Shown here piece after piece: positions 4,801 through 48,310 of a DNA stretch of 64,000 nucleotides. Under the pieces are notes generated by a model. That model was not told where the DNA came from, did not search any database, and was given only the letters and a program-made list of their open reading frames with translations. Each line of letters starts with the position of its first letter. Within the stretch, counting starts at the first letter, position 1. Position numbers and translations under genes: made by a program. This DNA is from Trichopria drosophilae (taxonomy: Eukaryota; Arthropoda; Insecta; Hymenoptera; Diapriidae): contig CM059585.1 of the NCBI GenBank assembly GCA_030407085.1, forward strand, positions 13,881,001 through 13,945,000. Direction: 5' to 3'.

Positions 4801-5078
4801 TCGTTTGAATTTCTGTGGTACTTCACAAGTATAATTTTGTAAAAACTTTCTTAGTACAATTTAACTCACGACAAACATTTGAATTATTTACTGTCCTTAT
4901 TTTTTCTTTTTTTTTTATTATTAAATAAGAGGAGAGTGTAATTTTCATAAAAATATTTCTTACAAAAGAAATTCAACACTTCGTGTGCATCTTTCATTCT
5001 TTTCCATGTTCTATTACAAATTGTTTATTAAGACGTTATACAATTCCAAAAGACAGACAATTACAAGATACAAAAAAA
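1851..5078. other. AT-rich non-coding DNA
   Basis: No open reading frame of interest, no TIR element and no GC island. Scattered TGATTCTCATAAA-like words resemble the array at 300-1850 and may be its older remains. A short hairpin at 3699-3742 is listed separately. Confidence 0.6.
3699..3742. repeat. Short hairpin, 9-bp stem
   Basis: AAGGCCCCT at 3699-3707 pairs perfectly with AGGGGCCTT at 3734-3742 across an AT-rich 26-nt loop. It is GC-rich against its surroundings. No function is inferred. Confidence 0.5.
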
Positions 5079-5276
5079 AATTAGTCCAGATAACTAAACG
5101 GGTAATTACCCAGTGGGAATTAAATATTTAGTAATTTAAAAGTTGAAATTAGTTAAACAAAATCAATGTCAGATTAACTACATTTTAGTCAGTTTAACTA
5201 AATGCAGCGTAAAAATGACTAAATATTTAGTTCCCACTGACAAGTAACTACACGTTTAGTTGTCTGAGCTAATTTC
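5079..5276. mobile_element. Foldback MITE-like element, ACTAAATATTTAGT type
   Basis: The left arm (about 5079-5132) is an imperfect inverted copy of the right arm (about 5216-5276). Matching words include AACTAAACG and CAGTGGGAA...TAAATATTTAGT on the left, against ACTAAATATTTAGTTCCCACTG and CGTTTAGTT on the right, in inverted order. The centre holds further GTTTAACTAA words. There is no coding capacity. Similar looser sequence occurs near 17750-17950 and 19290-19400. Confidence 0.65.
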
Positions 5277-8031
5277 TTTTTTAGTCATAAAACTATTTTA
5301 AATAAAAACAACTAAAGATACAACAAAAATATTTTAACGCAGAGTATTTACAGACATCGTATTCAATTAAAATAAATATGATTAGACAATTAAGTATACA
5401 AACATCAGAAATTGTGAAACGAGTATACATATATAAATGCTACAATAATGTTTTTATTGGGGCATAACGCCGATCTTTTCAAATCTAAAAATTGTAATTT
5501 AACAAAATTAAGACTCAATTAAAACTATTGAAAAATATGATCTACTTCATAGAATGTAAATTTTACAATCAGTTATGTCCTTGCCTTCAGCTATCGTTTG
5601 AAATGCTTTCGTAAGCAGATTACGAAATGTATGTTTTATTAAAAAACCGAATGCGCATGATAATAAAAATAATAACATATTCAATATCCGGAAATGGAAA
5701 CGCTTCGCGAATGATCAAGTTTCCATGTAATCAAATATTTCTCGACGTACCGCGTTCAGAATATTATTTAATCGGTCGCTGAAGAAATTCTTAAATGGCT
5801 GAATAATTTAATTTTTCGCGCAGAACTGAAAGAGTCGGATAATTCATAATAAAAATATAAATAAATTTCGTCATACAATGCAGTTTCATAATTGAATATT
5901 AAACGTTAATGAATAAATAAATGGCTAATTGTATTTACGATAAATGCCTTGTTTCTTTTTGATGAGTATTTGGTTGAAACGTACTTTCATAGTTATCTGC
6001 AGTAAATTATTATTTCAATATTTACTTCATTATTAGTCATACTGAAGGAATATATGACGAATACAACGTAATTATAAATTCCGACAAAGAGAAAATTGTG
6101 AATTTTATGTTTGCGGAACAAATATTTTATTATCAAACTTATTGAACATCAATAAAATTTATTAGAGGTAGCTTCAACATCGAGATACCATACATCCAAA
6201 TAAAATAAATATTGAAAATTTGTACTAATCGTTTGAATAACAAATTTTAAAAAATAGTTATTACATACAATCTAGAAACATTTTGATAAAAAAGAATTAC
6301 AGACAATAAAATTTCTTCATGAATATTACATAAATACAAACGCCTAATCGAAATATAGTCAGCTAAAGATTAAAAAATTCACAATAAAATGAATAGGATT
6401 TGTCTCAAAATCAGCTTGGTGAGAAAGAAAGTAGTAAAAAATCTTTAAGATAATTCGTTTTATGTCGTTAATTTTACTATATTTATTTAAATTGATAGTT
6501 AATAAGTATTCAGAATGATTAAGAAATGCGTTACTATGCAATAAATGCAAAGAAGCATATGCTAACATGATCAAAGGAAACCGCCAATAACTCCATTAAA
6601 AATAATTCCACTAAAAAAGTTTCCATACAAATTCTTAGTAAATTTGAATACTTTTTAAACTACTCAACGTATTTCAATAGGTCCTCAACGAAATTTTATG
6701 CAGTTACGACCGAAAAAAATTAAATCAATTAAACATGTAGTTGAGCTAAAAATCATCAAAAAAACATATTTTCATTCAATTCTAGTAATTTTTTTATAAT
6801 TAGTTAAATGAACTTTCAAAATTGAATTTCTTTGACTGTTTTTTTAACTAATTTAACACCTTTACGGTTGCAATTTCAATTTATGAAAATTTATTCAGGA
6901 TATATTATACAAACACTTTGAATATTTAAAAAATACTCAAATTTACTAAACATTTTTCAGTATTTAAAAATAAATATAATATAAAAATGTATGTTAAATG
7001 AAGAAAATGTGAGAGAAAGGTAATTGTAAGACTTATACCAAAATATTTTCATAAAGTATAAACGTTTTAAAATTTTGACAAAAAAGTAAATGACAGAACA
7101 TTTAACGCTTAATATTAAGTTAAAATACTTAACAAAATAAAACTAACTTTTCTGATTGATTAATAATGTTTTAGTTTAAAGGCGATAACTTTTCCATAAT
7201 TATTTTATGTTCTATTTTAAAAATGACTAAAGCCGCATTTGAAATGCAAATAGGATCAAGGTAAGTTCACGAATACCCTAATAGATGGCGCTATTTAACA
7301 TAATCAATTGATTTTTTTGAAATTTGCATCTGTATTACCAAATTATGGTAATTGTACTGCTTGGGCAAGAAAACCAAGTTAGTCAGAGAAAAAACACGTT
7401 ACAATTAAAAATTTGTCTGTTTTTTTTTTTTTTTTTAATTTACGTTATTTTTTTACTAAATTTGTTATTGGTTTCTTAATTTGGTAGATGTCAACTCGAA
7501 ATAGAGTAGAGAAGGTGCAGAATTTCATGGGGAATATAATATGATGACTGAAAACCATGAAAAAAATACGAAAAAAAGCAAAAAAGAAAGTTTTTCTTAA
7601 CAAAAAAATAAAAAAACTAAAAATATTTCTACCCGATTTCTACCCTTTTAAAGCTTTATTTGCCTAACTATAGGTACGTTAAGTACCACTAGATGTCGGA
7701 TGATATGGGAAAACTCAGAAATAATAGAGAGTATCCCTCAGTATACCTCAAAAAAAAAAACAAAGTAACCTTTTCTAAAAAACGCTCTTTTTTAGGACAG
7801 TCGGTAGGAATTCATCGAAACTATTGTTGGATTTTTATTTTTATTTAATATACTTTCATTTATTGGAGCTTTAAACATAAATGCATATGATATTTCATAT
7901 TATTTTGAATTTTTGTTGTATTTTGACAAGCGAAAAACAGTGACCTACATAAAATTCAAATGTCTGTCATTTTTCAAATTTTCGACATTTTTGAGATTTC
8001 CTAGGTTCAAGCATCAATAAATATCATCTAT
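5277..8031. other. AT-rich non-coding DNA
   Basis: No supported gene. A stretch at 7487-7540 (ATGTCAACTCGAAATA followed by a GGGGAAT-containing tail) resembles 62481-62535 and may be a dispersed repeat. Homopolymer T and A runs are frequent. Confidence 0.5.
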
Positions 8032-8493: not shown

Positions 8494-8777
8494 TTAAGAA
8501 TTTTTTCACGTGGTCATCTCATTTTAGGCGGTCCCATTGTAACAGATGTACCAAATTTTTCTGTCTACATTGTATACCAATGAAATAATTTTGTATGCTC
8601 AAATATATGACAAATAAGTACCAAAAATGGTTAATTTGCCTCCGCCCCTGAAATAAAATATAAAAAAAAAAAAAGTGTTTGGGTCGCCCGAGAAAAATTT
8701 TCCCACGGGAGTACCCAGATCATAAGAACCGTAAATTTACTCCAAGTTGGAGTAACGGAATTAAAGCCTGGACTTAC

Positions 8778-8818
8778 CTGGACTAGTCTGCCAAGATAAT
8801 CCCCCGATGAACATTTTC
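8778..8818 (-). CDS. Rbp6: Exon 2 of Rbp6/Musashi-type RNA-binding protein (RRM1 start)
   Basis: This is a 41-nt internal exon. On the minus strand a pyrimidine tract ending TTTTTTAG (acceptor AG at 8820-8819) precedes G-AAA-ATG..., and the exon ends CCAG before GTAAGT (donor GT at 8777-8776), both near consensus. It encodes KMFIGGLSWQTSP. MFIGGL is the RNP2 strand of RRM1, which contacts RNA in Musashi-family translational regulators. The QTSP ending matches the Rbp6/MSI2 subgroup rather than Drosophila msi, as known from the family. The first base completes the glycine codon split from exon 1 (GG|G), and the last base G starts the next codon. The rest of RRM1, RRM2 and the C-terminus must lie left of the window; nothing resembling them was found in 1-8770. 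Subfamily naming is by motif, not by alignment. Confidence 0.88.
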
Positions 8819-8837
8819 CTAAAAAAGAAAGACTCCA

Positions 8838-9470
8838 TCAGCATAGGGCGATTAAACCCGTCGTCGCCTGGATTCTCGGTTCCTTGGAGGCGAGATCCGG
8901 ACAAAGTCGAGAAGTGGAGAACAGCCGGCAGAGGGTAACTTCCGGTAACACAAAAAAACACCCCTCTCCCTCTCAGTCTCCGTTCCTCGACGACAGGTGT
9001 CACCACACATCAACCAACAACTGAACTCCCGAAATTTTTTTGAGGCTCGAAATCCACCAATCGCCGAAATCCGAACACGTGCTCCAATCACCACAAGGCT
9101 CTATTTCTGGTTCGTTGCTCTATTTTTTTGGTCACGACCCCCCCCCTCCCCTCCTTTCCTTGCCCTACCTCGCTCGCACTTCGAGATCGATCGCCTCGTG
9201 CCTCCCCCCCTTGCACCGAGTGCACACAACGGAGTAACCAGCACTTCCGACGGGTCTGCCACTCGCGTCGCTCGACAACGAACCACTTAAAACTTCGCAA
9301 ACTTAATTTCGAGCGAGAGGTCGTCGTCGCCGGATTCTTTAACGCCCGTAAACCGTTTACCTCCGATACGGCCCTTTTAATCTTGCGGACACGACCTAGA
9401 GCTTTGTTTTCACGATCGGTCCCTGATAAACGCTCCGATCGCTCCTTTGATCTATACGGAGATCCAGCAT
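8838..9470 (-). promoter_or_regulatory. CpG-rich island beside exon 2; possible alternative promoter
   Basis: GC-rich, CpG-rich DNA follows immediately upstream of exon 2 on the minus strand, with pyrimidine runs (CCCCCCCTCCCC near 9139). If transcription began here and the acceptor were unused, reading would pass in frame from ATG at 8844 or 8838 through MESFFFRK into MFIGGL. None of the open frames on either strand looks like a known protein. The promoter role is inference from composition and position. Confidence 0.4.
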
Positions 9471-10149
9471 GAGTGACAAAGATCTATGACGATTTAATTG
9501 GATCTTTTGTTTTTTTACTTCGAAAGGAGTCAACAAATCTTTAAGGTTGGCACTTACTCAGATTACGGTAGCTTCGAATGGAGCCAATTCAAAAAGGACA
9601 TTCCTCTTAAAGTTCAAACTCGAATAGTAAATACAACCATACTAAAATCACTTTGTGAGTAAGTTTAACCTCAAAAAGAAACGTCAAAACCATTATTTAT
9701 GACAAAATGCAGAACTATACATTTTTTTTTCTTTTTATATTATTTTATGTCGACTTTTCTGAACCCATATAGGACCAAATCGTGACGGATCCTACAGTTT
9801 ATGAAGCTGGAATCCGAACCACCTGAGCTTTTGCGTTATTAGACATTTATAAACAAATACAGAGGTGTCCCGATGACAGAGTACCTATAAATTGCTAGGA
9901 AATTATCGAAATTACTACTCGCCCCCCAAGAGGACACCGTGCGAGTTCTGTCGGTAATGTCACTCCCTAAAAATGAACAAATTCAAATAAAAGCTTCTAA
10001 AATACTAAAAATACTTTAAAAACTCATAATTAGTAAAAAAACTATTTCCAATATCTAGAGGAATTGTTTACGTTAAAAAAGGTGATGAAAGGAAAAAAAT
10101 GGTTACTTCCTTCAGAATACTTGTGCCTGTACATGAGGAAATGAAATTC
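9471..10149. other. Intronic DNA, nothing recognised
   Basis: Mixed-composition DNA with no coding signal. A tRNA B-box-like word on the minus strand near 9810 was examined and rejected. Confidence 0.5.
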
Positions 10150-10330
10150 TGAAACACGTGGGGCAAGTGCATTCGACAAGTTCCGTAATACGTCGGCTGC
10201 GTGCGATTCGCTTAGATATCACCACGGTGATAACGTAACTCGCGGTCACGTGGGGTTGCCTTCGAGCATCGATTTTCCGAACGGAACCGCTTATATTCCC
10301 AACGCCTAATCTACTTCTCTCTTCGTTTTA
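10150..10330. promoter_or_regulatory. E-box pair and palindrome, candidate enhancer
   Basis: CACGTGGGG occurs twice (10155-10163 and 10247-10255), about 90 bp apart. Between them, near 10216-10231, lies TATCACCACGGTGATA, a palindrome with a 2-nt centre. The segment is GC-richer than the surrounding intron. CACGTG is a bHLH binding core; any use here is inference. Confidence 0.3.
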
Positions 10331-13300
10331 CAGCTTCCATTCTCTCTTTGCCATATACGATGTCACCTATCTGTCATTGTCAATATTTATCTTAACCTCT
10401 AAATAGTGACTCTGAAAATGTCTAGTCCTTAAAAAAAAAAAAAAGTTATTGAAGTCTTGCAAAAGATTTGTGAAGTCTTAATTTTTGATTGGAAATGTCA
10501 CTAAATGCTAAAAATTTTTGGACTAAAAAAAATTGTCTGAACGAGTGATTCATGAAACTTTGACAGCGAATCGGCGCACGTCGCTCCTAATGCAACGATA
10601 TATTCAACGCGGAAGTCGAGTTTTAATCAGGTTGTTTATAAATAATACACAATCATACGAGCATTGTTCTGTTTGCGACCGTGAGAAAGAGATTCTCGAC
10701 GATATCGCGAGAAACGAGACGCGAGGAACTTTGAAAGTATCGCACGATTCAACGATCTCTTATCACTTTTTCGCGACCTCCTTGATAACGGAAACTAGCA
10801 AATTATCCGAGAGAAACTTGAAACGAGGTGAACTTAAATTTCAAAAACGTGCGGTAAACTTGTGTCTTCTTCTCGACAAAATTTCATGAATTTTGGAAAA
10901 TTTTGCAGATTTATTTTTTCGAGAACTAGACAAATTTTCATTTTTGTATAATACAACTGTAAAAAAATACTTAATATAACTGGAAAATTAGTAGCAATAT
11001 TAATTTGTTGCGAAGTTATTTTATTTAGTTAGTCGTAATAGTTTTAAGTCTTGAATTGATTAAAGAATGAAAAGTTTTGAATTTTTAGTACGATGTATAT
11101 TAACCAGAGAGAAAACTGTTGATTAATGTTTAGTTATGGACTGAAAATTAGTTATTTTCGATTTTAATTAGTAGCATTTGTAAATAATCAATAAATTTTT
11201 AATAATGCAATGTAACTAAATTTACTTTTAACGATTAATACATTTTTAAAAGGTAACTGAATTTTCTTTCTCACTATTCAACTAGTTAAACCGCTTTTAT
11301 TAAGAAAGTGGTAAAAAATAGATTAGGTTAATTTAATTTTAATTTAAATTAATAATTTTTCAAAACTTCAAATAATTTTCAAAAACATAATTGTAAAAGT
11401 CAATAATTTTTTAATACAATAACTTTAAAATTATCATTTAGTAGGTCGTAAATAAATATTACGGTGTTATAATTTAAACGAATCATTTTAATTTGAAGTG
11501 AAATTTATTAAAATATTTTAAAAAATGCAAAATTTTAATGAAGTATTAAATCAATTCTTACTAATTTAGTTAGCGCAGTAAACAATAACAAAAAGTAACT
11601 TTCTTATTTATGGCGGAGATTTTGATAAGACAATTTAAAGAAAAAAAAGTAAAAAAATTGTTTAATATTAAATTTATTTGTAAATCTTTGAAAAAAAGTT
11701 GTATGTTTTAAATATTTAATAATTATAAAAATAAAGTAAAAAATCATTCTTTTTAAGATAATCTCTGATTAATTACTTATAAACTATTCATAAATTAATA
11801 AAAAATTGTTCAAAATAATTTTTAAAGAATTTGACAAAATTATTTCTAAAATTCATTCATAAATAATGTTTACAAACACAATCTGTTTATGTTATTTATA
11901 AATCGTTAAATCTTAAAGAAATTTATTTTAAAAAAATTATCTCGCGAAAAAATGACCGATTCTTTAACATTTATATTTATAATTATTGTACAACTAAGAA
12001 ATATCGAAAGATAATTTAAAAGAATGCATTTTATTATTCTTTGCTAAGTAACTTAGAATTTTAAAATCATAAAAAAATGAATTCGTGTATTCTTTAATTA
12101 AAAAAATGTTTTCATTCATAACATAACCTCAAAAATGAAATTTAAGAACAAGAAATAAGGCAAAATTTTAGGTTCAACATTTTTTTCGTTCAAACTAAAG
12201 AATAATTTACAGAGACTCATCAACCTCTGTGCTTTTACAACCTTTTCAGGACGCTCGTAAAACTGTCAATAGTTACTCAAATATTCTGGATGTCGACATC
12301 AGTGAGGATAATTCAACTTCCTTCCTAACGTGCAACTACCAACTCAAATCACCGACAGTGTATTATTACCCACTTACTTGATTTCATACAAAAAAGATCA
12401 CGTTTTTGTTCTGAAGTTCCATTGTAAAAAAATTGCGCATATTTAGTTTTTGGATAAAAAATTCATTTTTTCAACTTTGTTGACATCTATTTCTTATGTT
12501 TTTTATTAAATTGTAAATTATAAAAACAATTACAAATACATTAATGGGCCAACTAGTATAAACATTAAACAAAATTTCTGAATTTTTTAACTGTCCTACA
12601 TTTGAAAAATTCCTATTTTTGTATAGAAAAAAATCGATTTTTACCAAAACAAACCTTCTCAAATTACTGTGTTTTTAAATTGAAAACTTAAATTGACTAC
12701 TGCACCAAAAAGTAAAAAGAAAAATTAATGTTTTTTTTCAATAACAATAACGTTTTCTGTATAAAAAAATAATTTTACCGATTCAAAAATCGCGCAAAAA
12801 AAAATTTTAGTCGATATTTTAAACATTTTTTCATAAATATTTCTCAAGATTTGTATTTTTCGGATTCTTTGTATGTTAAATACCTTTTAATTTAATAACA
12901 TTTTAATGAAGTATATTTTTTCAAAAAAACTTTTTTTTTTACTGTCCACTTGTATATTCTAAAAAAAATTCACAACGTAAAACTGACAATAACAATACCG
13001 ACATCCACTTAATGAGACTCAATAAGAAATTCATAACAAAAACAAAAACACGAAAAATTCTTTAAAATTTTAATAATTCCATGAAGAAATGAAAATAACA
13101 ACACTCACTAAAAATTATTTTTAAAAAAACGCAGCTCTATTTACTTTCATGACATTATCCAAAACGATGTCTGACCAAAAATTTTTCACATTAGTCCATT
13201 ACTACTGACGACATCCGTCGGACCCAGAATGTTTCTACTGCGACAACTCGAGCCGGTGTGGAAAATGTCGTCTTTTTCTACTTTTCTCAAGTAGATAAAG

Positions 13301-13599
13301 CCGCGTTGAGACAACGCTCCCTCAATGTTTACTCGATAAAAAACTACAGTTACTACTGATTTTTTCTCACTTCGAAACAAACAGAATACAATTTAGTCAA
13401 CACAACCTACAATTAACGAAAAAATTCACCATCTCGAACAGCGAATCCTCGTATCTCCGTACCAAAATACAAATTTCTACACAACATCCAAAAACGTCGA
13501 AATCACGTAAACAAATGAAAACAATCCAACGACAAAGTGTAAAAAAATCAGTTTCTCCTTTGCAAATACCCGCAAACAATTCGAGGGCCTTAAAAGCCG
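10331..13599. other. AT-rich intronic DNA
   Basis: No exon, element or array was recognised. The open frame at 10533-10889 and those at 12471-13732 show no family resemblance and lack splice or start context; they are not reported as genes. Confidence 0.55.
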
Positions 13600-13804
13600 A
13601 CATTTTCCCACCGTGGATAAAATTGAATTTTCCGTCACCTTGCCCTACACTGTAGGTCATTTTTTTCGCCGAAATGACAGTTCCTCGTGGTTTGAGTTCT
13701 CCATCGCGACCACGTGGTCTCCGCATCGTCATCGAGCATCGGATCGTGCGAGAGAAAACCTACTCTTCCCCACCACCCCTACCCCCATTCCCCCCACTGT
13801 CATA

Positions 13805-13829
13805 CTCTCTCTCTCTCTCTCTCTCTCTC
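13805..13829. repeat. (CT)12 microsatellite
   Basis: A perfect CT/GA dinucleotide run in intron 1, about 0.6 kb downstream of the exon 1 donor. On the gene strand it reads as GA repeats, the type bound by GAGA factor in insects. Confidence 0.9.
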
Positions 13830-14414
13830 GCACGCACGCGGTACTTATCGACCACGTGAGCGTAATCTCGCCGTTGCGTTTCATATTCTCCCATGACCCC
13901 CCTACTCCTCTTTCTCACTCTCGCGCCTTCTCTGTCGCGCGCGCTTCGATCGGCCCCGAGATGCCGCGGGGTCACGTGACCCCCAACCGCCGACACCCCC
14001 ACAATACGTTGCCGCACCACCCCCGCACCCATGGCGGGAAATTCGAGAGAGTAAAACAGCGCTCGCGCGCGCGCGGGTTCGTCGGACCGTGGAAAGTCGA
14101 AACTTGTTTCGCGAGCACGCCGGCCATGTGGATGACTACAATACCATTCGTTCTCTCATTCTCTCTCCCATTCTCTCCCTTTTCGGTCTACGCACACAAG
14201 GGGGAAAGCACGAGGCGAACCTTTAAGAAACCCGTAAGAATAACAAACACAACCGAAACAACACAACAGGATGCAGGAGCCTTCTTTCTCTCTCTCGCCC
14301 TCTCTTTCTTTCTCCTTCGTGACTCCCGCACTGCGATAAAACGAGACGCGTCCGGGTCGTGCAGGTGGTTGATGATCGTGGTGGATGGACGATTTTTGGC
14401 GACGGATTTCGTAC

Positions 14415-14479
14415 CCTGGATCGTTGGGCACTTCTGCCGGCGCGCCGCTGGCTGCGACCTCCTGACTCTGTTGTTCCAT
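14415..14479 (-). CDS. Rbp6: Exon 1 (coding part) of Rbp6/Musashi-type RNA-binding protein
   Basis: The minus-strand ATG at 14479 has a good context (AGG-ATG-G: purine at -3, G at +4). An in-frame TAA lies upstream at 14539-14537 with no ATG in between, so this is the supported start. The exon encodes 21 residues, beginning MEQQSQEVAASG and ending AEVPNDP, plus GG of a split glycine codon. The donor is GG|GTACGA, weaker than consensus. Joining to exon 2 gives PNDPGKMFIGGLSWQTSP, the linker and RNP2 strand known from MSI2/Rbp6 proteins (DPGKMFIGG). The alanine/glutamine-rich leader before RRM1 is short, as in the family. Regulation is probably from the surrounding GC-rich island. The splice phase, the DPGK junction and the RRM motif together make this strong, although each part alone is short. 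Confidence 0.85.
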
Positions 14480-15059
14480 CCTGGATCTTGGACGAAGCGC
14501 GAACTTCTCTTTCAAGAAAACTCTCGTTCCCTCTCCTTATCTCGCACTCTCTCTCTCTTCCTCCGTCGCGAAAAGTCGTCACCCGCGTCGACGCCTCCTT
14601 GCCGGCGAGGAGGACGTTTTTACACCGTTGCTCGCTGGTGCTAAGGCACCGACGTGCTGTCACTGTCGCCGGACTTGCGGTCACTTCCGGTCGTCGATCG
14701 TGGCAATCCGACTGATTCGCGCCGACTCGAAAACTGCACTCCTCGACGATGTCGTTCCTCGGGGAGCTGGGGGAGGAGGAGAAGGCTCGACGAGTACCGA
14801 GAGTACCTCGTCCTCGTCGTCGGCGACGTCGTCGAGCTTTTTTGCTTTCGGTGTTTTGTAGGGAGGGCTACGACGACGATTTTCGGTGTCGTTCCGCGCC
14901 CGAAACTACCGACTACTAAAAACTAAGGAAGGTAAAGAGAGAAGAGAGAGGTTACGTTGCTGCGCGTTGTACGGCGACTACTGATGACGGGCGGCGGCCG
15001 GATCTCGGACGTGCGACGCGCTCAGCGAGAGGTTCAACGCGACACTGCGCTCTGCGGCG

Positions 15060-15182
15060 CGGGGCGGGGGTGTGCCGGGGGGGTCGCCGGGGCCGGCGGG
15101 AGGGGGGTAGGGTCGAGCGGCGGGCTGCGGGGGCGGCGGGCGCCCTGGGGGTGGTGGGGGCGGGCGGGGCAGGGTAGGGGCG
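15060..15182 (+). promoter_or_regulatory. Guanine-run block, G-quadruplex candidate
   Basis: The plus strand carries many runs of four or more G separated by 1-10 nt (GGGGCGGGGG, CCGGGGGGG, GGGAGGGGGG and others). This is enough for several overlapping intramolecular quadruplexes. It lies about 0.6 kb upstream of the Rbp6 start and would be the template strand of that gene. Confidence 0.6.
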
Positions 15183-15314
15183 CGCTTGCGCCTTGGCGCA
15201 TCGTTCGGCACCGTGATCTCTCCTGGTGCACTGGTGTGTGCATCGCGCCGCACGGCCTTCCGGGAAGAGGCCCTCGGCCCGCCTCCGAATGCTTGGTGCT
15301 CCCGAGGCAGCATG

Positions 15315-15347
15315 TCTTCTTCTTCTTCTTCTTCTTCCTCCTCTTCT
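15315..15347. repeat. (TCT)n microsatellite
   Basis: A TCT/AGA trinucleotide run of about ten units, slightly interrupted at its right end by TCC. The serine run it would encode on the plus strand is not supported as protein. Confidence 0.9.
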
Positions 15348-15400
15348 GATACTCTTCCTTACATCCTTCTTCGGGATTCCCCCTCCCTTCCCAAAAAAAT

Positions 15401-17169
15401 GTTTTATAAAATCTATCAATTGTACTATAAAGAATGAAGAAATTAATGTTCATGTAATTACTGTGTAAAGTCTTGTTAGTGATACACAATTTTAATAAAA
15501 TTTGTTTGTGTTTGGAATTAAAATTAATATATAGTATAACTTTTAGTAGTTTCTTTGCATGATACAAATAGTAAAGCATTTATTTTTACTATAGAAATTC
15601 ATAGCTATAACATGATTGGGTTTTTAGGTAAACGATTTTACAGAGATGATGTTTTATAAACAATCATTCCATCATAAAGTTGTTCAATATATGAACGTTT
15701 CAACAAAATATGAGTAGGTCTCAAAACTAACAAATAAAAAAGCAGACAGTAAAAAAACACTTAAAAATGACTGCATTTTTGTTGATCGTTTTTTATGTGT
15801 CGACTTTTTGACTGTCGGCCTTATGATTGTCGGTTTTTTTACTTGACGGCTTTTTAATTTGTCGGTTTTCCGACCCACATCATAAAATATATGTGAGTGT
15901 GTGGAAAATGTTACATGTCTAATCAACACAAAAGAGACTCAACATCAATATTTTCAATCTGAACATTTGACAAACTCAACAAAATACCATATCAAATGAA
16001 AAACGCAAAAACGTGTATAAAATTTTGACACCGTTTAATGAAGTTCTATTAAGGTTACATGAGATTACATTTCAACTTGAACAGCTGAAGGAACGTACAC
16101 GAAAAAATTTCAAAAGAAAGATTAGTTCAGAACAAAATTCAAAAATTGTGAGACGAAGAAGCTGAAAATTTGTTCCCATGAAAATATATTTGCATTTATT
16201 AGCGGCAAATTACTCGTTTAATATGCGGTAGGCAATCGTTTGGTAATAGTTTCAACTAAATTATGCGAGTAAATTAAATCCATATTATCGGATTTGGTAC
16301 GGATTAAGTAAAGCGCATTCACCTGTTATTAAATATTGTCTGGCTCGTGTGTCTGTTTCTACTGCGGTAACAGTTTTTCTACTTTTCCTCAATTTTGGGC
16401 TGTCTCACGCAAATCCAACTTTATCTACTGCTAAAGTATCTCTGATTAAAATTTACTTATTACAAGTATCAATTCGCAGGTGCCTTTAATGATAGTTATT
16501 GATTTAATTCAAAGTATGAAATATTTGTGTTCTTCTTTAGTTAATGTCTCTTAATATCAATCTTTCGATATTTAATCGGTAATTAATCATTATTTATCTT
16601 TTCGCTCATATACCTTTCTCTTTTGCTCTCCTTGTTGACTTCCTCTCTCTTCTCCATGCAAACCAACATGTTTTATTTATCACCAGTAAATATTGATCTC
16701 CGTAAATTATATTAACAGTAACAACTTTATGGGAAACTCCGACCTTCCTGCGAAATAGGTATTAAATTTAAGCCTGAGTACCATTACAGGGACAGGCAAT
16801 AATTCTACGTTTTTATCTAATTGCAAGTTGACTCGAGCACTGCTACTTCTCCGTGGATCTTTGCTATCTAAGATAGTATTAATATAAAACTAAAAATAAT
16901 TTTAAAGATATGTGGTTTAATCATCATATCCAAGTTTTTTGTTGTTGCAATAATTCGATATCAAATTGATTTTTAAAATGTTCTTATAACATAATACATA
17001 CACAAAAATTGCTTTCCGCATATTAAATTACTGTTATCAAAAATGTCTTAGTTTCAAGGAAATATATGAAAAAACAGAATTAATTAAAAATAAAAATGAC
17101 TGGTTATCATGAAAACCATCAAAAAAATATTGTTGCATATGAATCGTAAACAAACAACAATAGTATATT
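15401..17169. other. AT-rich non-coding DNA
   Basis: Abrupt return to AT-rich sequence. No gene was seen. A word set around 16358-16400 (TTTCTACTGCGGTAACAG then TTTTTCTACTTTTCCTCAA) resembles 13226-13290 and 18241-18300 and may be a weak dispersed repeat. Confidence 0.5.
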
Positions 17170-17410
17170 ATGCTTCAAGGGAGGAAGCAATGCGAGGGCA
17201 GCACTCCTGCGAGGTGCGCGCGCTTGCCTCCCGTGTGGCGTACGCTATTTTTCTCCCGACCCCATCCATTACTCCCGCTGGCGACGCTTTCCGTCCCTAG
17301 GGAGTAATGAGAACGAAGCGTGCATGCGCGCTGGAGCCCGGCGGAATCGGCAACTTTCGTCCCGCGTTCCAAGCATGGAATACGGACATTCCGACGCGGT
17401 CGGGAGAAAA
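17170..17410. other. GC-rich island with 10-bp hairpin
   Basis: An isolated GC/CpG-rich block in AT-rich DNA. CATTACTCCC at 17267-17276 and GGGAGTAATG at 17300-17309 form a perfect 10-bp stem with a GC-rich 23-nt loop. No coding frame resembles a known protein. It is a candidate conserved or regulatory block. Confidence 0.45.
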
Positions 17411-17519
17411 TATTTTTATTTATAAAAATGAGCCGCAACTGCCCACTTTTCAATGCAGATAAGTCACAATTGCTTTAGAATTTGAAATAGAAAGTGACAT
17501 TTGCTTTAGCGAATTTTCC

Positions 17520-24834: not shown

Positions 24835-26930
24835 TTTTCACTTTCACTTTTTATTTAATAATGTATCTGCAATTTCCATTTCCAATTTGTTAATTATTTT
24901 TATCCTTTAAGATGGTAGAAGAACACATCTTAAGTATAAACATGTAATGTAAGCAAACAATAAACTTGTATAGAAATAGATCTTCTGACCTTTCACTTTT
25001 TCCATTTATTTATTCATTTGTAAAAAAAAGATTTTATATATGTTACACGACATGACGGTATTATAATTATAATACGGCAGGATTTGTACTCAATATTAAG
25101 TCGATCTGTTTCTCTTTTACTTTTTCTATAATGCTCAATTTTTGGCCCAATTCGTCTAATTTAGACTTTAGTATAATTATCTCATCAACAACCCATTTGC
25201 GCCACCATATTTGTAAGTTCTATTTGTCTTCTTCACTTTCACTTTTGTTTAAAATACTTAATCATCGACTTTTCTTTTATTAAAATTTCAAAAGTTATTA
25301 ATTGGTAGGTTCCTCACTGTCCTTTAATAAAAATAGCATCGGTTTTTTAACGTAACCATATCAAATACCACCGACATGACATAAACTTATTCCTTTCACT
25401 TTTTAAACAATTATTTAATGTCTACTCTTTCTGTTCGTATTTAATTAACAGAAATTACTAATTGCCGGTTTTCATACGGTAGGTATCAATACATAGAAGC
25501 TTTCGTTTTCAAAACAAAAGATATTGCATATCCAATTGTTCTTCACGTTTCTATTTTTCATTAATCAATAATATTGTATTGCTATCGGGGCAAGAGTATG
25601 TCATGCCCCAAAAATCGGACCAAAAGTTTATCCATTATATCACCTTGAAACAAATTAACTTTCACTTTTTTTTTAATATTTAATTGTTGATTTAAAAATG
25701 ATGAATTGTTATATTTTCTCACGGAATCCATCAATAAAATTTCTGTTTACCAACATAAACATCACTTACCCCCTACGTGAAGTACATTTATGTACTTTCA
25801 CTTTATAAACAATTATTTAATTTCGTTCTTTTTTCTATTGGTATTATTATATTAATATTGTTAATTATCAGGACTAACTTCAACTATAAATTCTTATGTG
25901 TAATAAAATAAATTTTCATCACTTTTACTTTTTTTTTTGTATACATATTTAATTTTCCATCGTTTTTATTGGTGTTAAATTATCAGAAATCGCAAATTGT
26001 TAGTATCTGTTGGTCCTTCACCAAAAGGCTATTTGCAATAATAAAAACTATATTTGTAGCAATTACCTTTCACTATTTTCATTTCTCTTTAATTAATAAT
26101 CGTCCAACCTTGCTATCGGCATTGATTTAACAAAGAGTATGTCATACACCAAAAGTTGAACCAAGAGTTTATCGCTTAAAATATTACCTCGACTCAAATT
26201 AACTTTCACTTTTTTTATATTTAATTGTTGATTTAAAAGTTAATAATTGTTATATTTTCTTTGGGCATCCATTAATAAAACTTCTGTTTACCAACATAAA
26301 CAGCAATTACCCCGTACATGAAGTAAATTTATTTACTTTCACTTTTCAAATAATTATTTAATTTTATGTTTTTTCTATTAGCATTATTATATTAATATTG
26401 ATAATTGGCGGGATTATCTTCGACTACAAATTCTTATGTGTACAAAGATAAAGTAATTTAATGTTAATCACTTCACTTTTTTGTATACATATATAATTTG
26501 CTAATGTTTTTGTTGGTGTTCAATTATCAGAAATCGTTAATTGTTGGTGCTTGTGGTCCTTCACTAAAAGGCTGTTTACAACAGTAAATACTACATTTGT
26601 AACAATTGCCTTTCACTTTTTTTATATTGAATTGTTCCATTAAAAGTTATTAATTTTTATATTTTCTCATGGAATCCATTAATAAAACTTCTGTTTACCA
26701 ACATAAACGTCGAATACCCCCAACATAAATACATTTATGTACTTTCACTTTTTTTTTGTATACATATTTAATTTTCTATTGTTTTTGTTGGTGTTAAATT
26801 ATAAGAAATCGCTAATTGTCGGTGTCTGTCGATTCTTCCCCAAAAGGCTGTTTACAACAATAAATATTACATTTATATTACCTTTCACTATTTTTATTTC
26901 CCTTTAATCAATCATTTTCTACTCACATTG
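24835..26930. repeat. Tandem array, ~135-bp monomers in four-monomer super-repeats
   Basis: CTTTCACTTTTT-like words recur about every 135 bp (about 24838, 24990, 25237, 25397, 25661, 25796, 25919, 26067, 26204, 26336, 26470, 26608, 26741 and 26879, with weaker ones between). Monomers fall into four types. A contains CTGTTTACCAACATAAAC, B contains AATTATTTAAT...TATTAATATTG, C contains TTTTGTATACATAT...ACCAAAAGGCT, and D contains CTATCGG...AGAGTATGTCAT. The order A-B-C-D repeats with a 541-bp period (25743 to 26284). Later blocks have lost a monomer (A then C at 26608-26741). The array is non-coding. Confidence 0.85.
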
Positions 26931-27049: not shown

Positions 27050-27829
27050 ATTTTACAAAAATGTTTATTAAACCCAACTGTCCTAAACGCATAAATCTCA
27101 TAACATCGAACCCATTCCTTACTATTCGAGTCAATCTCAAATTCAGAGCTGAATTATTTCTGCTACAAAATGTTCCGCCGCCAGTAAAAATATTGACTCT
27201 CCACAGAGTTTCTTTATCTTTTGAGAGATTTCGAATTTCTATATACGTCTGTCTCTTACTTTCTACGATGTTTGTATGCCTCCTTTTCAATCCGTTCGAC
27301 TATGTTTCTCTTTCTATATATATCTTCCTTAATCTATCCCCTCTCTTCACCCATTCCTTCTCTTTCTCCCTATCTTTCGCTGATCTCTTCCCTTCTCCTC
27401 CTCTCCTTTCTCACTCTTTCCCCTTCTTCCTTGGCATCTCTGTCCCACCCTTTCGTCTACCTCTCTCGTTCGACTGCAGCGCTTCCGCGAGTGCCGCAAC
27501 GGAACGGCCGACCGCCCGGCCGCCTGCACTACTTGACGCGATTCGGTTCGATTTCGGCGCGCGATGCTGCACTATTTTCGGCGTTGCCCTAGGTGCGAGG
27601 AGGCAAGTGCGCGTCGGGCGCCGTCGAGGCTTTACGTGACTCGATTCTTTTATTTATAGACGGGCGGGGGGGGGGGGGCGAGGGGCGGTAGGGAATAGGG
27701 CAGCTGGCGGAGCGGGAGGGGGCATCGACGGTACCGCCGAGTGTTTTGTTTTGGGTTCACCGCTTTAACGAGGACCCGAGAGCGGGTTCGCTTCGAAGGA
27801 TTTCGATTTGGGCGGCGGTTGCAGAGACC

Positions 27830-27881
<52 letters not shown>

Positions 27882-27960
27882 CCCGTAACTATATTTACCC
27901 CTGTGTTTTTCAGCCCGACGTGTTTTACACCTTGACGCGATAATTATCTCGGAAAATTGA
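27050..27960. promoter_or_regulatory. Pyrimidine- then GC/CpG-rich island, possible upstream promoter
   Basis: Sequence passes from pyrimidine-rich (27250-27470) to CpG-dense (27475-27640), then a G14-type run (about 27667-27680) and a CT microsatellite. On the plus strand TTTATTTATA at about 27650 is TATA-like. On the minus strand AAA|GTAAGA at about 27258 would be a good donor for a 5'-UTR exon of a gene reading left, such as Rbp6. Open frames here are low-complexity and not reported. Promoter or UTR-exon status is inference. Confidence 0.35.
27833..27878. repeat. (CT)23 microsatellite
   Basis: A perfect CT/GA run of 46 bp at the right edge of the GC-rich island. Confidence 0.95.
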
Positions 27961-28486
27961 CCAACCCGAAGTGATGAGTAAAGGTGAAAAAGAACATTCG
28001 CTTTAAGAGGGCTTTAAATGATATTTTCAAAATTCCGAGAGATGGACCACGAAACGAACACTTTACGCTTGAATTGCTCGTTCATATTCGATGAAATGAT
28101 TCTAGGGTGGGGTTTGGATATTTTGTATCAAAACACGAATTGTATATAATTCTATATAATTTCAGATACAATTTGATATAATCGTGTATAATCTTATATG
28201 ATTGTTTTCAGTTATCTTTAATAATATATCATTTTTTATATTGTTGATGTAATTATATATTTATAGCAAATTAAATAAATATATAATTAAATATAATTTT
28301 AAATTACACTTTTATAAACTGTATTATATGTCTATAATTTTTTTCCCCAGTTTGTTTTAGTTCTTCAGAACAGAGACGTTATGAAAGATGAAAATTACTA
28401 AAGATATGTGCCCAAATTATATTCATGTAATTTAAAAAAAAATGGTATGCCAAGACGAATTAATAGTTATTATTATTTGACGTTTG
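27961..28486. other. AT-rich DNA with TATAAT-like low complexity
   Basis: Repeated TATATAAT/ATATAATT words at 28140-28330. Nothing coding. Confidence 0.5.
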
Positions 28487-28672
28487 GCATACAGGGGTTT
28501 TTGGAGGCGCTGATTGCGAATATCAAATTTACAAAATTCAAAATGGCGGATCCAATATAGCCGACCAAAATTATAAGAAACTGTAATATAGTCTTATATT
28601 GGATTCCCCATTTTGAATTTTATACACCTGACAGCGGATTCCTAATCAGCGGCTCCAAAAAACCTTGTATAC
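28487..28672. mobile_element. Foldback element, AAAATGGCGGATCC family, complete copy
   Basis: The arms are full-length inverted copies. The left arm starts GCATACAGGGGTTTTTGG, then GCGCTGATTGCGAATA and AAAATGGCGGATCCAATATA. The right arm returns through ATTGGATTCCCCATTTTGAA and GCGGATTCCTAATCAGC to CCAAAAAACCTTGTATAC. This copy best defines the family's symmetric structure (~185 bp). Confidence 0.8.
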
Positions 28673-30689
28673 CTACTTTAAGAGAAGAACTATCACTGGC
28701 AAAATTCGTGACTAAAAGAGTTAAAGGTTAGGATGATTTCTGTTGTATGGGACCCGAAATCAGTTCCATTTCATGTTCAATATGAACAAAAAAAATATCA
28801 TATTTTCGTAATTTAATAACCACCGGTTTGATTTTTTGGACGATTCAATTGCAATTGAAACACGAAAATGTAAAAATTTTGAAAAATATACCGGCAATGT
28901 ACTAAATTGAACTCTTCTCAAATTTGTAGATATATACAGATTGTTTTTAAATAAGGTTATAATTTGACCAACTATTAACTTAAACCCAGTTTTAAACTCT
29001 TCCAGAGACGATTGAATAAATCGAAATTTAAAAATCGATTAAGTTTTAATCTTTAAGCACAGGCAATTAATAATCCGAGATGTGAAATAAGTAGGATTAG
29101 AAATCTTAATTTTAAGGTTATCGTTATATTTGCATAATATCTAAATTGTCGATGTTTGTCAATGAAATTTTCGATTATATTCCTACAATAATTAATATTA
29201 TGAATGGGATTCTTTAAAATGCATACTTTGAGAAGTCTCTATTATAAATTCTGGCTTATATAAAACTTTCTTCCATTATTTTAAAGCTTCAGCATCAAAC
29301 TTTATTTCTCTGCGGTTCTTATATTCATAGAAGACGCTTAATCTTACTTACTTCAACCTGGATATAAGAAGAAATTTGGGTTGTTCTGATTGGATAAAAT
29401 CACGATTTAAGATCTTTTGGACAGGATGTGAGTGACGCATATAAATTCGGATTATCACTGTTAGAGGAAGTTACGAAAATAGTTAATCTAACTATAAAAT
29501 TTGGAAAAGCAATAAAAACTACGAGATATAAAAATGATGTTTGCTATTTATCAATTAACAAAATTACACGGTACATCAAGAAAAATAAGGTTTTATAATA
29601 TCTCATTTAACTAAAGTGTACATCTTAATAAAACTATGTAATTTATGTAAGTGGTTACCGTGTTATCAAGCATTGCCTATCAAAATTTTGAGTACAATAT
29701 TGATTAATTAAAAGGTGTTTATTATTATTTGATTTCATAATCTTAAATAAAAATAACTGCTTCATTAACGAAAGTAAATAGTAAATGTTTAATTCTCTTT
29801 GATAACCAAATTTAATTCAAAATATTGTTCTTAACTACTGGAAATTATTTAAATTGAACTATTGGAAACTATTAATTATCCCTGATAAATTCGTATCTTC
29901 ATTTATTACGCAGCAAATAATCTAGTTTAAAAATAGAAATCGGTGATTATTACTATATTCGTTGCAATATTTAAGGCTATTGCTTAGATATAGTTGGCAT
30001 ACTATTAAACTTTGCTATGTAAATTCCAGATTCATTAAAATAATTGATTTGAATTTGGGAGCAGTATTATTTCGCATACCTAATGTACAAATTTAGTTAG
30101 TATTTATTAACTGTTATCACTATTTCTTACCATTGCTTATATAATACTAAACAGTCACTAAATAATCGAAGTAGATTGCAACATTCATATAATTCAGTAC
30201 TTTTGAAATCTGATGCCCCTGCTATGTTATACCGTAAATTATGTATTTTGCGTAAAATATGAGGTAGTGACTATAAATTTAAGGTATAATTAAAGTACTT
30301 TTTAACATTCTTCCATTCATATTTAATAAACTAAAAACTACCAGCAAAATAGCTAATGGACCCACTTCACACAAGTAATAGCATTAACTATTTATTTAGT
30401 AAACAAGATAATAATATTTTCCATTTTATATTTCCCGATCGATAAGTATGCAGGAAAGTACATAACCTCAAATCTACCGCAGTTTTATAGTCAATTACAA
30501 AATTCGTCACTTTGAATATTCCTGAGTTAGTAAAATAGACGTAATAAAATTGAGTACATGAAAATAATCTCCTGGCATAGTAAAAATATTTATTATATGG
30601 TATATTTTACGTGTGCTTACCATATATTGTATGAATTATACTGCAGTTGAGGATATTGGGCATATTTTCATTGTACTAAAATTACTACT
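28673..30689. other. AT-rich non-coding DNA
   Basis: No gene. AATAGTTAAT/ATTAACTATT words are frequent from about 29450 onward, suggesting old, unresolved repeat. Confidence 0.5.
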
Positions 30690-34660: not shown

Positions 34661-35109
34661 TTAAGATACTATTATTCCTTCCAAAAAGACGTTAAATAAG
34701 CCTGAGTTTAAATACTTTTGCACCTTGCCAAGGTTTGATCTCAAATAAAATTTATATTTATAAGCACAAAAAAAATAGTTTTGATGTCATCGAATAAATA
34801 ATAACACTGCTACATTTATAAAAATGAAATTGTCATTCCAAACACTTTTCTTCACTACATCAGTAAACATAAAACTCGTTACCCACATGAGAAATAATTC
34901 GTTCCCACGTGTAAAATATTAAACACTGTCTGCCTATACCTGTTACGTTTATTCATTGTTATGCCTACATTGTTCTACCAATATCTGTATGCATTTTTCG
35001 CAAATTCCAATAATTTATCTCAATTTTCACTTAGACATGACTGGACACGAAAGACCTCTATATTTTCTGATTTACACGACTTTAACCTAAGATTATAGTA
35101 ATTTCGACA
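34661..35109. other. AT-rich non-coding DNA
   Basis: No gene seen. Part may be the 5' flank of the decayed LINE. Confidence 0.4.
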
Positions 35110-35410
35110 ACCATTTTGCAGCACGTCAGTCCCGGGGAAATTGGCGCCCCACCTGCCGCGATGACAACTCGCGGTTTAGCTTGGCACGGATCATTGTCGC
35201 TTGCGGCATTTAGTCGCAGACAGTGAAAAGGCAAATCTGTCATGCCTTAGTTGTCTGATGTAAAATTCGAAATTCGTATGTTAGCGAGCACGGCGATTGG
35301 CCGGTCTCGGTCGTTATACTTATCGCTGGTAAGACTAAAGGTGACGGTGTACATGACAGGCAACAAATCGGTGCGACAACAATATCCCAGGAACACGGCG
35401 TGAGAAATCA
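35110..35410. other. GC-richer island, candidate conserved non-coding block
   Basis: Balanced-composition, CpG-containing sequence set in AT-rich DNA, without coding frames or repeat structure. Its contrast with the flanks suggests constraint. No function is inferred. Confidence 0.35.
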
Positions 35411-35867
35411 GTTTTTGAAAGAACATTGCACTACCTGTTTCCAATTTCCGAGAGTTTTAGGAAAGTTATTTTGTATTCGTTGTTTGACGTACATTTTGAA
35501 ATTTGCGGGTAACATTTCGTTCATATTTGTAACATTTCGTTCATTATACTTACTTATCATATTTTTTAGTACTTTTTCGATCTATCATTCATATTCAACA
35601 TAATACAATTTCGAAAATTAAAACAAAATGTACTTTCTGAAAATTTTAAATAAAAATTCATTAAATGCAAAGTAACATAAATTTTGTTAGATATTCCTGT
35701 TTGGTAATGGTATAAATTCTTAAAAGTTTTTAAGCTTGCTATTTCACAATCGGTCGGACATTTTTCAATATCTACAGTTATTTTTTTCAAAATGGCGCCC
35801 AGAATGCGAAACAAAAACAAAAAAAATTATATTCTTATATTAAATCTAATATTACTTTTATTTTGTC
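35411..35867. other. AT-rich non-coding DNA
   Basis: Open frames at 35400-35820 on both strands have no family resemblance. Toward 35790 it grades into AAAATGGCGCC-type sequence ahead of the minisatellite. Confidence 0.4.
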
Positions 35868-36727
35868 GGTTTCAAAATGAGTATCTTACAGTGGTGGTAT
35901 AAAATAGGAGTTTCAGAATGGTTGTTTTAAAATGGCGATTTCAAAATGATGCTCAAATGGTTGTTTCAAAATGGCGGTTTCAAAATGATATTTTCAAATT
36001 GGTGATTTTAAAATGTCGGTTTCAAAATGATGATTTCAAAATGCTGATTTTACAATGGTGGTTTAAAATGGGAGTTTCAGAATGGTTGTTTTAAAATGGC
36101 GGTTTCAAAATGATGCTCAAAATGGTCGTTTCAAAATTGCGGCTTCAAAATGATGATTTTACAATGGCTGTTTAAAATGGGAGTTGCAGAATTGATGTTT
36201 TAAAATGGCGGTTTCAAAATGATGCTCAAAATGGTGATTTTAAAACGTCGGTTTCAAAATAATGATTTTACCATGGTTGTTTAAAATGGTAGTTTCAGAA
36301 TGATTGTTTTAAAATAGCGGTTTCAAAATGATGCTCAAAATGGTCGTTTAAAATTGCGGCTTAAAAATTATGATTTTACAATGGTTGTTTAAAATGGGAG
36401 TTTCAGAATTGATGTTTTAAAATGACGGTTTCAAAATGATGCTCAAAATGGTTGTTTCAAAATGGCGGATTCCAAAATGATGCCTTCAAATGGTTATTTT
36501 AAAATGTCGATTTCAAAATGAGTATCTTACAATGGTGGTTTAAAATAGGAGTTTCAGAATGGTTGTTTTAAAATGGCGATTTCGAAATGATGCTCAGATG
36601 GTTGTTTCAAAATGGCGGTTTCAAAATGATATTTTCAAATTGGTGATTTTAAAATGACGGTTTCAAAATGATGATTTTACAATGGTGGTTTAAAATGAGA
36701 GTTTCAGAATGGTTGTTTCAAAATGGC
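35868..36727. repeat. Minisatellite of ~15-bp TTTCAAAATGGYG words, 641-bp super-repeat
   Basis: The word KTTTCAAAATGRYG repeats almost without interruption for about 860 bp. Variants include GATGCTCAAAATGG, GATTTTACAATGG, GGGAGTTTCAGAATGG and TTGTTTTAAAATGGC. A long variant string starting GAGTATCTTACARTGGTGG at 35880 reappears at 36521, 641 bp later, with few changes over more than 130 bp, so a larger block has been duplicated. The unit shares AAAATGGCGG with the foldback family in this window. Confidence 0.85.
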
Positions 36728-37854
36728 GTAATTTTCATGAAAAGGTTCTATTTCCAGTTACCACGTCATTGTAACTGAATATTAATATTTTATTATACTG
36801 CTTAAAACACGTCAATTTTTGAGATTCCTGATTATGAATTGATTGACAGATTGTTAAAGACAAATACAATATGGCGATCAACAAAATGTAAACCTGCTCT
36901 TGAATTCTTAGGGTAACTAGTGTTACGCAGTTTAAGGCACTGCAATGTTTTGTTTCTGATTATGTACCTAATCGAAGCAATACAAAATCAAATTTTACGT
37001 AATATATGTAATAGTACACATACAACAGTATTTTACGATTAAAAAACTGCAAAATTTTTCTAAGATGAAATTTTCGGTAATAATAAAGAAATTAATGTGT
37101 CGATTAAAAGTCGGCGTTTTTCAAACAATCGAAATGAAAGGCAATGTATATAAAGAGGACGGATGAAAAAAAGTTCTATGCACGCTAGCCATTTTTCATG
37201 GAAGACTTTGAAGAGCCGTCTACTAAATACAAAAGGGATCGATACAGTCAGATTGCCAGGGGAGGCGTCGGATTATTACCTCACATGCTATACCCTCCGA
37301 AAACGATGTCTATAAAGCAATAGGTGAGCAGGTACTGTAATAACAGGACTCTATATAAACACTGTAATTGCTTTCATAATCTTTTATATGGAACTACCAA
37401 TTTCTTCAATTTTAAAATGAATTTTCTCTGCATTTTCCAATCTCTTTTTTAACTCGTATATGATTATTTTTATTTACTTCGCTAATATTTAATTATTTTA
37501 TAGTAGATTTTTTTTTAACTACAAGTGTAACAAACTAAAAGTATTTGTAGATTATTATCGAAATCGCTGTACTTAATTACTGTACTAACAAAATCTTTAG
37601 TAAATTACTTTTTAACTATTTAAATTTAATTTAAACATGGATTTCTTTGACTTTTCACTATTTACATTCTTGTTAACATATTCAGATTACTTTTGTGACG
37701 AAAGAACATATAAAAATGGTAATGAACACCTAATTTTTATTGTTTATGTTACATAAATAAACAAATATAAAAATATCACGTTTTTTCGAAAAAATTCACT
37801 ATTTGCCACGTTTTTAAAGGCAATTACTCGAAATTTATTATGGCAATGTTTCTG
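36728..37854. other. Unassigned DNA
   Basis: No gene. A more balanced stretch at 37180-37340 has no recognisable content. Confidence 0.4.
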
Positions 37855-43059: not shown

Positions 43060-43490
43060 TCCAGTCAGCCATTAGTAGTCAAGGCACGAATGGCCTCATC
43101 TTCGACGAATTATTCAAGTTTGTGCAGGACATATCGAGATTCAGTTTGTGTCCGTCCGCATCGAAACCGGGCAGATACGTCGCAGTCACGTAGGACGTGT
43201 TCTGATGACCGTCCCGAAGGATCTGGCTCCTGCCAATCTGCGTTTCAGGATTTTCTAACCCTTCGAAGTGTCTGAACGTCGCATCTTGTCTTTTGCCAAC
43301 GCGTTTCCGCCTTCGAAATCTTCAAACATCGTGCCGACCAGGGGCATTCGTGGGGATTCCAAGCCCGAGTCACGTTCCCAGCTCGGCACGCGAGTTGCGT
43401 GCACGTACCTATTCGTATGTGTGGACAGCCATTCGCGATCCGTTCGTTTAACAGCGCAAAGAAAGGAATCGATTTGAAAGCTAGACATGC
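43060..43490. other. GC-rich island, candidate conserved non-coding block
   Basis: CpG-containing balanced DNA contrasting with its flanks. Open frames on both strands (43090-43488) overlap each other and match no known family. No good donor/acceptor pair bounds a single frame, so it is not called as an exon. A regulatory role is inference. Confidence 0.35.
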
Positions 43491-43555
43491 CGACGCTTCG
43501 TGTTAGCGTATGATTGTATTTTGCACTCCAATTAAGATTTTTCGAACCAATGCGT

Positions 43556-43861
43556 TACCCGAGTAGAAATGGCCCGATTTGACCCCAATAGAAACCAGGC
43601 CCGAGCCGGGATACGGCCTGGTTAACCTAATTAAAAATTCGATTAGGGTTCTGGCTGGACTCCAGCCGCGCTAGTCCGATCCCTTCGAATTCTGAATACA
43701 ACGACGGTAACTTGGTCGGGATCCGATCATAGCCCGGTCAGTAGCTCAAATCTGACCGGGCTGAAGTCGGGTAAGCGTGACAAGCCCGGCCAAATCCTGG
43801 AGACAACCAGGGTAACTCGAATTGATTCCGTTCAGAGCCCGGTTGCAATTTCTACTAGGTA
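43556..43861. mobile_element. TIR element built of GCCCGG words, GTAGAAAT terminus
   Basis: The termini are TACCCGAGTAGAAAT and, inverted, TACCTAGTAGAAATT. The interior is non-coding and reiterates GCCCGG/CCGGGC in both orientations, for example GCCCGGTCAG against CTGACCGGGC (about 43733-43770). It looks like a fold-upon-fold MITE. The same terminus occurs at 63221 with a different iterated word. Confidence 0.7.
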
Positions 43862-45016
43862 TGCTCTATTGTTCCTCGGCAGAAATTGATCCCTCGCAAA
43901 TGAACTCTGTTTTGAATAGGTAAAATTACCCAGTTTCGAATTACCATCGCAATCCTTTACCGATTCTCAAGTGAAATACGATAAATGATCCATAATTTAG
44001 TGAACCGCAAAACAGTTCTTTTGAGAAATAGAAGGCAACTTAAGGTCTCCTTCCTGTGGAAAGTAGGTAGGAAAGTAAGAGCTTTCTGATAATTTTGATT
44101 TCGCCATCTTGATCTCTTGCTTTGGCCATAGTTCTCCTGTTTCCCACCCCATCCCGACACTACCTCGATGGTCACCTACAGCTCTTCTTCCTAACCTTCG
44201 AGAAGTTCAAACACCTGCTGGTGTTTACTTAGGACGACGGTCTCTCTTTCTTCCTCTTTCTTAGTTACCATTGTCCTGTTCGTCTTACAATTTTCTTGGT
44301 GTGCCTCTGAGAAAAAAAAACAAGCAAGACCGGAAATTAACTTGACACAAATAGTGTGAAAGAAGTTTTATGATGTTTAAAGGGTTATTAATTTTCTGGA
44401 AATGGAAGATGAATTGTGTTATTTAGACAAAATAATGATTTATACTTTTTAAGAGATTTTTTATTCTAGTTAGAGTAAAATTTGCGGACCACATTGAATA
44501 CACTCCAGTCATGTTAGTTATAGGTGCATGCCGCTTGAACATTATGTTCTGTCGAACCTATAAATGAGATGCTGGGAATAAATGCACGTTTTTTGGAATT
44601 ACTGTTAACATCAAACGTTATAAGAATTTTAAAATTGCTGGAGATTTGTGGAGAAAAAATAGGTCTCAAAATATTATTAGAGTTCGACAAACCTCACCAT
44701 CCTGTTATGGTTTAAGAAAAAGGTTAAGAAGATATCTGGATAATCGTTAATGCTTAGTCGAAAAGAGACAAAGAACATTTTGGGTGCAAAGAAAAATTTG
44801 TGACCAAAGAAGGTGATTCTGTTTGAGACTTTCTTATTAAATTTTTCTCCATATACAACAGTGTCAAAGGTCCTCTAAAGTAGCACCTGAATGTCCAAAG
44901 AATGCAACAAACATCAAGTTTCGAATTGAAGTTTAACAATTAAAATTCATCATCAGCTTCAGCTTAGTGGTGTATTATAGAATTGACTTTGTTACAGACG
45001 TCATAAAGAAAGAAAT
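43862..45016. other. Unassigned DNA
   Basis: No gene or element recognised. Confidence 0.4.
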
Positions 45017-47665: not shown

Positions 47666-47749
47666 AAATAAGAATGATCGCCACGAACATCTGCCCAGAA
47701 TTATGCCCAATCAATCCACTGTAAATCATGACTCACCTGACCTCTTATA

Positions 47750-48310
47750 AACTATGACAGAGGAGATCGATCCAAGGCACTCTCATTCATCCTTTGCTCA
47801 CTTGAGCCTGACAATAAAAAGGGAAAAGGCTGGCCGGATGGTGTCCCCTTCATCGAAAATCCGCAGGGTTTTATCGGCTGCGAAAGGAGTTGCCGGCGCG
47901 GGCGAGGGCCAGATATTGGTCCAAAAGAGGCGGGCAGCGAGTGCAATCGCGAAGGGAGCCCCAGGACGGCGTAAAGCCGAGAGGCAATTAGTTAATTGAA
48001 TTGATCGATGGATTTCGTTCGCGCGACGCGTACTGACTCGACGTCTGATTGAGAGCATCCACTCGTCGCACACGCGCTGGGTGTATGTACACGGGCCGCG
48101 CCCGCAGCGTTTACACCGGAAACGAACAAAGGTCCGAGCGTAACTCGATAATCCGGAGTAGCGCTCGTTCCGGGCGCCGATCCGTCATTAGCGACGAGTG
48201 GATTAAGTTTGACGTTAAAATTACTGCACCGTCACGCGCCCGATCTGATATTTTCTGTCACCGCTGCGGAGGATCGCGGACACCCTGTTGATACCTAGCT
48301 TTTCTAAATA
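47750..48310. promoter_or_regulatory. GC-rich island with homeodomain-type core, candidate enhancer
   Basis: CpG-dense block between a tandem array and a transposon cluster. At about 47983-48000 it contains GCAATTAGTTAATTGAATTG, a cluster of TAATTA/CAATTA-like homeodomain cores. Overlapping open frames on both strands match no family. The enhancer reading is inference from composition and motif content. Confidence 0.4.

Follow-up and report, generated by a model that had tools for sequence, protein, structure and literature searches.

Musashi proteins bind RNA and control translation, as is established for the family. The closest described gene structure is that of Drosophila melanogaster Rbp6 (CG32169), whose isoform A has exons 3-10 of 41, 82, 85, 42, 93, 49, 83 and 85 bp and an exon 12 of 84 bp according to Table 1 of PMC3507872. 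That paper describes as unusual the arrangement of very short exons next to introns of very large size, and its table has had the 41-bp exon in print since 2012. On Rbp6 gene structure in insects our literature search found nothing beyond PMC3507872, as judged from titles and the opening lines of abstracts, and a search for a Musashi exon of 41 bp with an RRM found no paper.

Here we analysed a stretch of 64,000 nucleotides from the hymenopteran Trichopria drosophilae (C4:13881001-13945000, in an assembly of 936 Mb and 509 contigs; hereafter the window), in which an initial annotation made from the raw sequence had proposed a hidden two-exon 5' end of an Rbp6/Musashi gene. With a probability that we put at roughly 0.96, these segments are coding exons 1 and 2 of an Rbp6 gene of the Musashi family.

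Two short coding exons and their borders

Coding exon 1 lies at 14415..14479 on the minus strand, the strand of all features of this gene described below, and its 65 nt comprise 21 codons (MEQQSQEVAASGAPAEVPNDP) and two bases of a split Gly codon. The nearest in-frame upstream stop, a TAA at 14537..14539, stands 20 codons 5' of the ATG, with no other in-frame ATG between the two. Exon 1 ends at the intron 1 donor GTACGA (14409..14414; border CCAGG|GTACGA), intron 1 spans 5596 nt (8819..14414), and the intron sequence 5' of exon 2 ends in ...TTTTTTAG, with the acceptor TTCTTTTTTAG at 8819..8829 (border TTCTTTTTTAG|GA). Coding exon 2 (8778..8818) is 41 nt long and contains the base that completes the Gly codon, then KMFIGGLSWQTSP and the first base of a Glu codon; its donor GTAAGT (8772..8777; border CCAG|GTAAGT) opens an intron that leads to exon 3 outside the window. 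The joined exons stay in frame as MEQQSQEVAASGAPAEVPNDPG|KMFIGGLSWQTSP, with the Gly codon split in phase GG|G, and they read MEQQSQEVAASGAPAEVPNDPGKMFIGGLSWQTSP with one base over. The initial annotation proved exact to the base in its coordinates, its phase, its VPNDPG- peptide and the two lengths of 65 and 41 nt; the donor and acceptor pairs that it had called visible are there, as GT/AG borders at both segments, and so is the in-frame upstream stop (14539-14537).

To rank the splice sites of the window's minus strand we used a simple weight matrix of base frequencies, which placed the exon 1 donor 80th and the exon 2 donor 2nd among 3294 GT sites and the exon 2 acceptor 91st among 3009 AG sites. 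The exon 1 donor is therefore of only moderate strength. The exon 1 peptide of relatives finds 14479-14414 with E=1.65e-9, against E=4.2 for the second-best site in the window, so exon 1 is not a chance match. RRM1 begins within exon 2, whose KMFIGGL we take to be the RNP-2 core of this domain. As 41 nt do not divide into whole codons, a transcript that began at the exon 1 start and left out exon 2 would go out of frame and lose RRM1, so any RRM1 protein made from that start needs this exon. Exon 1 is surrounded by a GC-rich block (13601..15400, unstranded, 59% GC) that probably holds the promoter and 5' UTR.

Several other features of the window are recorded here for completeness. Seven blocks hold 300-nt intervals with GC above 50% (17101-17500, 27301-28000, 35101-35400, 43101-43900, 47701-48400, 55301-55800 and 60501-60900) and sit in an AT-rich region, the window as a whole having a CpG observed/expected ratio of 1.24. 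A tandem array of AAAATGG-like units, whose periods include 14, 41 and 109 nt, occupies 35856-36728. Among the repeat matches listed, 228-1839, 5072-5281 and 28486-28673 contain diverged inverted and direct repeats and are perhaps remnants of mobile elements; 401-846, 5072-5281 and 28486-28673 each align with the reverse complement of themselves, and 25268-26915 contains diverged direct repeats that are 70-85% alike. There are nine ORFs of at least 120 aa in the window; a Pfam scan of four of these gave no match above the curated cut-off, and no RNA family reached its gathering score in the window.

Ten coding exons and the identity of the gene

When the genome was searched with an Rbp6-like query, 50 matches had E<=10; the query included the translation of exon 1, whose match is thus by construction. 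The minus strand of C4 carries eight more coding exons outside the window, to its left, between 13.05 and 13.44 Mb and in the order of the protein. In order, the ten coding exons measure 65, 41, 82, 85, 42, 93, 49, 83, 85 and 84 nt, are bordered by AG/GT, and are separated by introns of 5596, 446546, 201531, 33258, 64175, 42420, 44745, 645 and 7220 nt. The 42-nt exon, between exons 4 and 6, was placed at C4:13208234-13208275 with a degenerate pattern that, with one mismatch allowed, fits four places in the genome. Intron 2 (C4:13443232-13889777; 446,546 nt) begins at window position 8777 and leaves the window leftward to reach exon 3. Counted over the ten coding exons, leaving out the 3' end, the counterpart of the 36-bp fly exon 11 and the 5' UTR exons, the gene spans at least 846,845 bp.

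Joined, the ten exons form an open frame of 236 aa with two RRM_1 stretches (Pfam), the first of which begins at residue 25. The best matches of this protein are insect Rbp6 proteins with up to 94% identity at 100% query coverage. Among the best 120 of 6090 matches, all are insect proteins wherever a species is named, and they carry the names Rbp6, RNA-binding protein 6 or Musashi, with the exception of two entries from Photinus, annotated as RRM domain-containing protein, and of entries that are unnamed; by these names the closest relatives are Rbp6 rather than dMsi or hnRNP. The exact 13-residue peptide KMFIGGLSWQTSP is present in 106 of the same 120, and in 100 of the 106 VPNDPG stands immediately before it, a set biased toward the exon 1 and exon 2 peptides in that the query held both. 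Solved RRM chains of Musashi-1 and Musashi-2 match the joined protein with E down to 3.7e-48. Slightly better structure matches are nuclear polyadenylated RNA-binding protein 4 (3.9e-50) and hnRNP D-like (1.1e-49), which outscore Musashi because both RRMs align in one chain in these two, whereas each listed Musashi chain is a single RRM. Altogether, the ten-exon frame of 236 aa, its two RRM stretches and its best matches among insect Rbp6 proteins identify the gene as an Rbp6/Musashi orthologue.

The shortness of the two segments and the 446 kb that separate them from exon 3 could also suggest a pseudogene or a chance match that is no part of a working gene, the more so as the highest-scoring place in the genome for the Rbp6 query lies elsewhere, at C5:63949985-63950428 (61% identity, E=6.6e-51), with a second piece at 63953505-63953636 (57% identity). 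The C5 locus scores highest because it is one unbroken open piece, however, and the RRM exons on C4 are 79-91% identical to the query (83-91% within RRM2). Together with a reading frame and splice borders that are kept in the right order across all ten exons, these identities make a pseudogene or chance match exceedingly improbable, and C5:63949985-63953636 is, by its sequence, probably a msi paralogue. We thus retain the two segments as the start of the Rbp6 gene, and the two-exon 5' coding end that had been proposed is borne out by the eight further exons on the same strand and contig.

In this gene model exon 1 contributes 21 residues and two of the three bases of a Gly codon, and exon 2 supplies the start of RRM1 and is spliced over 446 kb to exon 3, with the eight further coding exons completing both RRMs. 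Both splice junctions are presumably used, and the ATG of exon 1 is presumably the start codon. By analogy with the family, RNA binding and translational control are the functions to be expected of the protein.

N-termini of relatives and a possible second promoter

The bias of a query that holds exons 1 and 2 is avoided by a second search, whose query was restricted to residues 37-236 and which gave 6844 matches. DPG is joined directly to the exon 2 K in 95 of the best 120 of these; in 5 an insert comes after DPG, 5 have a different upstream segment, 5 start at the exon 2 methionine and 10 lack the exon 2 peptide. Eight of these last 10 begin at M[VI]MKDP within exon 3, and the other two are a Schistocerca nitens model and a partial Sarcoptes scabiei record. 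All of these counts refer to sequence clusters and isoforms rather than to independent species. As to a different exon upstream of KMFIGG, which the initial annotation had named as evidence against its model, the direct DPG|K junction prevails, and the 25 of the best 120 in which it is missing show that the family has further kinds of 5' end. The minority of records without the N-terminus could reflect alternative starts, partial sequence or misannotation. In Vespa and Vespula models an insert separates exon 1 from exon 2; among its five best matches per query there was no convincing one in the window and not one within intron 1, the best lying at 43165 with E=1.1.

One such 5' end could arise at this locus itself if a second promoter lay in the GC-rich stretch of about 0.7 kb that adjoins exon 2 (8819..9500, minus strand) and its transcript read directly into exon 2. 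GC content is 52% over 8801-9500 against 32.5% for the window, and a genome search that skips simple repeats and common words found no copy of 8819-9520 but its own. Extended 5' into the intron, the exon 2 frame runs through 64 codons, with two ATGs among them, until it meets a stop, so translation of such a transcript might start at an intronic ATG (giving MLMESFFFR-KMFIGG) or at the exon 2 methionine. An R precedes KMF, as read-through of AG|G would yield, in 4 of the best 120 models, three from Apis dorsata (P0103, P0121 and P0153) and one from Episyrphus (P0133), and the five models that start at the exon 2 methionine fit the same scheme. MLMESFFFR is absent from all nine of these models, however, and the window holds eight other GC-rich blocks; because seven of them stand away from exons 1 and 2, the block beside exon 2 is weak evidence for a promoter. 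We therefore consider a second promoter unlikely, although worth bearing in mind: were it real, the internal 41-nt exon would become a 5' exon, the Musashi protein would carry a different leader (MLMESFFFR or none), and promoter choice would set the N-terminus of Rbp6, as a few bee and fly models hint. We favor the model in which exon 1 supplies the N-terminus and is spliced to exon 2.

Comparison with Drosophila Rbp6 and the Musashi family

The initial annotation had called this 5' end hidden and of a kind that predictors commonly miss. This does not hold: the 41-bp exon of Drosophila Rbp6-A is already published (PMC3507872, Table 1), and the direct DPG|K junction is frequent among database models even when the query lacks exons 1 and 2. 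The structure of the gene is ordinary and already known, if very long. Our analysis places the start of a gene of at least 0.85 Mb in which a 446-kb intron separates a 41-nt exon from the next, which makes it a helpful test case for annotation pipelines that set an upper limit on introns. It confirms that the reading of the raw sequence was correct and leaves knowledge of Musashi proteins unchanged.

As in vertebrate Musashi-1 and Musashi-2, the protein has two RRMs, to which the solved RRM1 and RRM2 chains correspond. Its N-terminus resembles those of insect Rbp6 models (Apis florea isoform X9 and others), which are of the form MExQxQE...AEVPNDPG|KMFIGGLSWQTSP and belong to proteins alike over the whole query. 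According to PMC3507872, Drosophila Rbp6 isoform A shares with the wasp gene a 41-bp exon that precedes a very long intron, and all nine internal exons measured (9/9; fly exons 3-10 and 12, leaving out the 36-bp exon 11 and exons 13-15) have the same length in the same order, a likeness of lengths and order rather than of aligned sequences, in which the borders of wasp exons 3-10 were placed with the fly table in view but AG/GT and the reading frame left little freedom. By the figures in the same source, the two genes differ in that exons of 379 and 711 bp precede the 41-bp exon in the fly, whereas here only coding exons were traced, and in scale: the intron 3' of the 41-nt exon measures 446,546 nt in Trichopria against 42,426 bp in the fly, and the fly gene of 172,933 bp compares with at least 846,845 bp here, about five times as long.
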